Shown piece by piece: positions 38,616 through 39,455 of a DNA stretch of 64,000 bases (positions are counted from its first letter, which is position 1; each line of letters begins with the position of its first letter). A model generated the notes under the pieces. The model was not told the DNA's origin. It searched no databases and saw only the letters and a program-made list of their open reading frames with translations. Made by a program: the position numbers and the translations under genes. Source of the DNA: Bacteroidota bacterium (GTDB lineage: Bacteria; Bacteroidota; Bacteroidia; Flavobacteriales_E; Vicingaceae); contig JABFGJ010000003.1 of the NCBI GenBank assembly GCA_013112545.1, positions 1-64,000 on the forward strand, in the 5' to 3' direction.

Positions 38616-38714
38616 GAATTAAAGATAAATATTTTACTCCTTGTTTGCTAGCCTGTTTTAATTCATATGCTTTTAAAAATTGGCTGTGTTTTTAATTTCA
38701 AATGAGGATAAAAA

Positions 38715-38752
38715 AATAAACCTTAGAGTTTATACTTTCTCTAAGGTTTATT
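38715..38752. terminator. Strong hairpin terminator
   Basis: Perfect 14-base arms, 38715-38728 (AATAAACCTTAGAG) and 38739-38752, lie between the bTHX gene and the oxidoreductase gene. It probably ends the bTHX transcript on the minus strand. Confidence 0.75.
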
Positions 38753-38791: not shown

Positions 38792-39040
38792 TTACTCTTT
38801 TGTTTTAGTACTTGCTGCTTTTTTAGGTGCTGCTTTTTTTGCCTTTGGCTTAGCTGCAGTAGTTTTTTTACTTGTAGTTTTTGTTGTTTTCTTAGTTTCG
38901 CTAGCTTTAGCTTTTGTAGCTTGTTCTTTCTTAACGGCTTTAGGCTTTATTTCTACTTTAGTCTTTTTCCTTTGTCTGCTTACACCTGCAGAGCCTGCTT
39001 TCCTTTTTCCTTTTTTACTTTTTATATCGCCTTTTCCCAT
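38792..39040 (-). CDS. Small ribosomal protein bTHX with histone-H1-like tail
   Basis: This protein has 82 residues. The first 26 (MGKGDIKSKKGKRKAGSAG..) follow the bTHX pattern MGKGDxKxxxGKxxxGSxGxxR; bTHX is a short basic peptide held in the head of the 30S subunit. The remaining 56 residues are Lys/Ala/Thr-rich with TKTTSKKTTAAKPKAKKAAPKKAA, like histone H1 tails. Ordinary bTHX proteins are about 26-40 residues, so the tail is an added part. It lies upstream of a hairpin terminator and next to the HU gene, both facing the same way. Confidence 0.65.
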   Translation of the reverse strand: MGKGDIKSKKGKRKAGSAGVSRQRKKTKVEIKPKAVKKEQATKAKASETKKTTKTTSKKTTAAKPKAKKAAPKKAASTKTKE

Positions 39041-39131
39041 TTGTATCTATTTTTTGATTGTTCATAATTTGAATATCAAATATAGAAATTTACTGCTGAC
39101 TAAAAAAAGAATATAAAATATTAGGGCACAA

Positions 39132-39163
39132 AAAAACCGTCTCGAGTTTTCGAAACGGTTTTT
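39132..39163 (-). terminator. Terminator of the HU gene
   Basis: AAAAACCGT (39132-39140) pairs with ACGGTTTTT (39155-39163). It starts 20 bases after the HU stop and reads as a stem followed by T-run on the minus strand. Confidence 0.7.
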
Positions 39164-39182: not shown

Positions 39183-39455
39183 TTAGTTTACGTTTCCTGA
39201 TAATTCAGAACCTGCTTTAAACTTTACAACATTTTTTGCTGCGATGTTTATTTCTTTTCCAGTTTGTGGGTTTCTACCTTTTCTAGCTGCTCTTTTTGAA
39301 ACAGAGAAAGTTCCAAATCCAACTAAAGCAACTTTATCACCTTTTTTTAATGCACTTCCAGTTGCATCTAAGAATGAGTCTAATGCTCTTTTAGCATCTG
39401 CTTTAGATAATCCAGCTCCGTCAGCCATTGATTCAATTAATTCTGCTTTGTTCAT
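39183..39455 (-). CDS. HU-family DNA-binding protein
   Basis: This 90-residue nucleoid protein binds and bends DNA as a dimer. It shows the HU fold: [28 protein letters not shown], then the dimer strand [28 protein letters not shown], with the DNA-contact Pro in GRNPQTG and the closing [12 protein letters not shown]. Normal length. It has its own terminator and is probably abundant. Confidence 0.95.

Follow-up and report, generated by a model that had tools for sequence, protein, structure and literature searches.

A predicted bTHX ribosomal protein with a long polycationic tail typical of its bacterial family

The gene thx lies within the window, the whole stretch of 64,000 nucleotides analysed here, and its sequence identifies its product as bTHX (30S ribosomal protein THX), the sole copy of the host genome. 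The protein consists of a 26-residue bTHX core and a Lys/Ala/Thr-rich C-terminal tail (Table 1). Since the tail occurs in every complete copy read from the host family, it is typical of the lineage and not a one-off fusion. The protein is probably the single bTHX of the 30S head in a lineage-typical long-tailed form, whose disordered tail would clamp the nearby rRNA. An earlier interpretation of this DNA, the first-pass annotation, is partly supported. What it had seen is confirmed: the open reading frame is real, with correct coordinates and 82 residues, and the strand, which had been left unstated, is the minus strand.

Table 1. Position of thx, its parts and its surroundings in the window
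Feature	Coordinates	Strand	Basis
thx, encoding a long-tailed bTHX of 82 aa	38792..39040	-	
bTHX core, residues 1-26	38963..39040	-	TIGR04560 positions 1-26 of 26
Tail rich in Lys, Ala and Thr (residues 27-82), polycationic with a net charge of +16	38795..38962	-	composition; charge-hydropathy
Junction (residues 29-34), VEIKPK, a hydrophobic patch and then KPK	38939..38956	-	
HU-family gene, 90 aa, context only	39183..39455	-	PF00216 2.3e-34
Terminator-like hairpin in the HU-thx intergenic stretch, 14-pair stem and T run	39130..39163	-	
Terminator-like hairpin after thx, 14-pair stem and T run	38710..38752	-	
TATATTTG, candidate -7 promoter element upstream of thx	39077..39084	-	fits TAnnTTTG

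The bTHX core and its tail

The first 26 residues were proposed to fit bTHX, and profile searches bear this out. They score 29.7 bits with the NCBIfam model TIGR04560 (ribo_THX), above the curated equivalog cut-off of 26 and over all 26 profile positions. A six-frame search of the genome with the same model gave 31.6 bits for thx, the only match at E <= 10; a second bTHX was not found in this genome, which is listed as 100% complete. The copy is divergent, as it scores 13.1 bits with the Pfam model PF17070 (Thx), below the gathering cut-off of 29.7, the class-wide search with this model left the host genome without a match at E <= 0.01, and the core alone matched the 27-residue Thx chain of the PDB with an E of 0.11 in a single-sequence phmmer search. 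PF17070 is strict for Bacteroidota: 57 of 149 class genomes pass its cut-off and 102 of 149 match at E <= 0.01, and four other Bacteroidota bTHX score 20.0-33.8 bits, one of them above the cut-off.

All residues that are invariant among 109 distinct cores, thx's own included (M1, G2, G4, D5, K12, G19 and R22), are present. Position 18 is Ala in thx and Tyr or Phe in 95/109 cores. Position 14 is Lys; Trp14 occurs in just 15/109 and is therefore not general. According to the available part of one source, THX contacts 16S rRNA of helices h43, h42 and h41 through Lys3 and Trp14 (U1351), Asp5 (P1304), and Arg9 and Arg10 (C1244) (PMC11711686). In thx, Lys3 and Asp5 are retained, positions 9 and 10 are Lys, also basic, and Lys stands in place of Trp14.

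With 36% Lys, 20% Ala and 20% Thr over 56 residues, the tail has the H1-like composition ascribed to it, and charge-hydropathy places it on the disordered side. The possibility of similar tails on other proteins of the host was rejected, as a search of the genome with the tail sequence at E <= 10 returned thx itself alone. The 31 complete proteins of the host family all carry tails of 40-85 residues, with net charges of +6 to +28, on the disordered side. Mean pairwise identity in the family is 51% for the tails vs 74% for the cores. In 18/31 host-family tails, residues 27-45 include a hydrophobic patch and, after it, a KPK-like stretch, compared with a mean of 3.8 and a maximum of 10 in 500 tail shuffles, for a pattern picked after the sequences had been seen. 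Outside the family, this pattern occurs in 5/20 proteins (shuffle mean 1.8, maximum 6) and is not convincing.

Seven close pairs of relatives, three of which have genomes in common, were compared at the codon level. Tail dN/dS is 0.11, 0.26, 0.27 and 0.30 in four pairs, 0.06 and 0.07 in two with dS >1, and 1.51 in the seventh, which differs by six changes only. By these ratios, selection on the tail between close relatives is mainly purifying. In 4/7 pairs, the two cores are identical in amino-acid sequence.

Several known proteins resemble parts of thx. Thermus bTHX (Thx or S31; TIGR04560, PF17070) shares with it a gap-free alignment over residues 1-26, the invariant residues, Lys3, Asp5 and basic positions 9 and 10. 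In contrast, the solved Thx chains of the PDB, which we take to be from Thermus, have 23-27 residues and no tail, whereas the window protein has a 56-residue polycationic tail, Lys14 and Ala18. The organellar bTHXm and bTHXc (S31) match the core over about 25-30 residues, but their longer chains start the core at residue 45-66 and continue for a modest part after the match (for instance, residues 45-74 of a 94-residue chain). The histone H1-like families HC2 and Hc1 (PF07382, PF07432) are likewise Lys/Ala-rich and of low complexity, and the tail of one class relative passes HC2; the window protein, however, matched neither Pfam model at E <= 1. A profile search of the PDB retrieved 12 Thx/S31-type chains (short Thx, mitochondrial and chloroplast), all lacking a tail of this kind, together with two weak matches to HMG proteins. 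Our literature search found no paper on bTHX tails in Bacteroidota. As far as the available text of these sources goes, section 6 of PMC3353972 describes no tail, and the term THX does not occur in PMC9976891, on Flavobacterium johnsoniae ribosomes, or in PMC10039652.

Length of bTHX in relatives

Sixty genomes of relatives, the host's own included, were searched, and 53 contain a bTHX above the cut-off. In the host family it was found in 33/37 genomes (own included). Counted by hand, all 28 further family genomes with a listed completeness of >=90% have it over the cut-off, and the 4/37 without it are 66-87% complete. Proteins were read from start to stop at 53 loci, own included; two host-family loci are cut by contig ends. 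The complete host-family proteins (n=31, own included) have 66-111 residues, with a median of 82 and none of <=40. In the other families of the class, 20 complete proteins range from 37 to 167 residues, 17 of them with >=50 and two with <=40.

A wider draw was made from the phylum, in which TIGR04560 matched 69/395 genomes at E <= 0.001. Besides the host's own and three already read, these are 65 genomes with 66 loci. The median length is 41 residues: 32 loci have <=40, 27 have 41-59 and seven have >=60. Of the last seven, two are nearly identical and come from a single genome; another, in G333, has an odd non-basic end. No protein of >=60 residues was found in 13 of the 16 families fetched. 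Among the matches listed in a search whose query alignment consisted chiefly of long-tailed proteins, 55/68 named loci have >=60 residues, a set that favours long forms and overlaps in part with the loci counted above. The bTHX of a cultured relative, Paucihalobacter ruber, is also long-tailed, with 74 residues. Across all loci read, the protein has from 31 to >200 residues.

The first-pass statement that bTHX is normally under 40 residues thus holds for roughly half of the phylum draw (32/66 at <=40) and none of the complete host-family proteins. The view of the tail as an exceptional fusion is not supported, with a long tail in 31/31. The survey of lengths in related genomes, which had been suggested as a check, finds the tail in all complete copies of the host family, an outcome that the annotation itself had named as speaking against its reading, and not phylum-wide.

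The window protein is the same protein as the bTHX described for Bacteroidota in the available part of PMC3353972. It differs in its long-tailed form, that of the host-family copies, from the mostly short proteins of the phylum draw. That source reports bTHX in all Bacteroidetes examined but one, and a table note in the available part of another states that, of all bacteria, Thermus alone has THX (PMC6953067). The latter is contradicted both by PMC3353972 and by the present searches. A purpose-built core profile found bTHX in 31/148 genomes (own included; one is a partial weak match), and the class draw with PF17070 in the 102/149 mentioned above.

Some loci stand apart. In a Paludibacter sp. 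MAG (L128:2001-3359), the bTHX core is in frame with about 425 further residues, 452 in total. By eye the extension looks folded. Apart from Thx/S31 it matched nothing in Pfam, and PADLOC gave no match either; a true fusion or a misassembly could account for the locus. Two bTHX with an identical core (L119, L120) lie close to both ends of the 3.86 Mb contig G350:C1, probably because its ends overlap in a circle left unclosed and not because the two are paralogues. In MAGs titled Cyclobacteriaceae or Cytophagales (L125, L126, L127, L132, L136 and L187), the tail starts, by eye, with IKARLKR or close to it and ends Arg/Lys-rich, perhaps a second tail type.

The HU neighbour and the transcription unit

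As first noted, an HU gene lies next door. It lies 142 bp upstream of thx and on the same strand. A terminator-like hairpin stands between the two genes (-17.8 kcal/mol, z -5.36) and another after thx (-16.1 kcal/mol, z -4.95), each with as low an energy in 0/200 shuffles. A simple terminator scan of the window flagged neither of these hairpins and no other. The candidate -7 element matches TAnnTTTG, presumably the Bacteroidota -7 promoter consensus. With hairpins on both sides, thx probably forms a separate transcription unit. Co-transcription with HU was rejected as a clue to function, since T-run hairpins separate the genes here and in 21/23 adjacent pairs (threshold -8 kcal/mol, no shuffled control). 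Two of these 21 look weak or irregular (G075, G348), and the pairs without a hairpin are G309 and G171.

Same-strand HU genes no more than 300 bp upstream of thx were counted at 177/187 loci, after removal of duplicates and short upstream flanks. They were seen at 9/33 host-family loci (12/33 anywhere in the fetched flank), at 13/13 loci of another family, f26 (e.g., L091 and L105), where bTHX has 34-51 residues, at 1/20 other class loci and 0/52 other phylum loci used, and at 1/59 named loci among the matches listed. The order HU-thx on one strand thus recurs in two class families, mostly with hairpins in between. If anything, long bTHX is less often beside HU than short bTHX (9/102 vs 15/75, Fisher p 0.045, with kinship ignored and the named loci taken from the matches listed). 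As HU also adjoins short bTHX, throughout f26, the link to HU tells little about the tail.

Readings of the tail

In the probable reading, residues 1-26 would dock between rRNA helices h41-h43, as the available part of PMC11711686 reports for THX. The disordered tail would leave the core through the short hydrophobic/KPK junction and act as an electrostatic clamp on rRNA near the 30S head. Such a clamp would serve head folding, assembly or stability, and its charge and length may count for more than the exact sequence. Most likely, the tail would hold rRNA around the 30S head. Against this reading stand the divergent core, with Lys at position 14 and Ala at 18, the one close pair with a tail ratio of 1.51, the unconvincing junction pattern outside the family, and the PDB search, which gave no solved ribosome with a comparable tail.

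A near-neutral, low-complexity tail, grown by codon-repeat expansion and tolerated at a free C-terminus, is unlikely. The wide range of protein lengths, the lower identity of tails than of cores in the host family and the one close pair with a ratio above 1 would fit it, but no short form occurs among the 31 complete host-family proteins, dN/dS is <=0.30 in 6/7 pairs, the junction pattern recurs close to the core in 18/31, and the net charge is positive in all 31. The idea that thx encodes a free nucleoid protein with no more than a likeness to bTHX, raised in the first-pass annotation, can draw on the divergent core, below the Pfam cut-off, and on the H1-like tail. It is disfavoured and appears highly improbable: the curated TIGR04560 equivalog cut-off is reached, every invariant core residue and part of the rRNA contacts are kept, no other bTHX match exists in a genome listed as complete, and the core is unchanged at the amino-acid level in more than half of the close pairs.

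The composition of the thx tail is like that of the H1 C-terminal domain. In a rival reading, a ribosomal core in the 30S head would carry a tail that touches DNA and couples ribosomes to the nucleoid. Besides this likeness, the HC2 score of the one class relative (43.7 vs a cut-off of 40), the lack of any Hc1-family protein over the cut-off in the host genome (a single match, weak at 12.4 bits against 23.5) and the adjoining HU gene speak for such a tail. The HU gene, however, adjoins short bTHX just as regularly in f26, was not found on the same strand in the upstream 300 bp at 24/33 host-family loci, which are tailed too, is if anything rarer beside long bTHX among the loci listed, and is parted from thx by terminator-like hairpins. 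Moreover, polycations bind rRNA as readily as DNA. We regard a DNA-binding tail as quite improbable, and DNA bridging by the tail as possible but unsupported. A bolder proposal, similarly doubtful, is a two-part bTHX, in which the core is docked and a selected H1-like tail reaches from the 30S head to DNA, mRNA or neighbouring ribosomes. If true, it would link translation with the nucleoid or with the packing of polysomes.

The solved Thx/S31 chains found have no such tail, so that no structural account of the family-wide polycationic extension of 40-85 residues was found. A ribosome structure from a long-tailed lineage would supply one. The long tail gave the impression of a rare fusion, which the survey sets right: it is a habit of the host family. 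In Bacteroidota, the length of bTHX is a lineage trait, short in 13/16 families of the phylum draw and both long and basic in 31/31 host-family copies.
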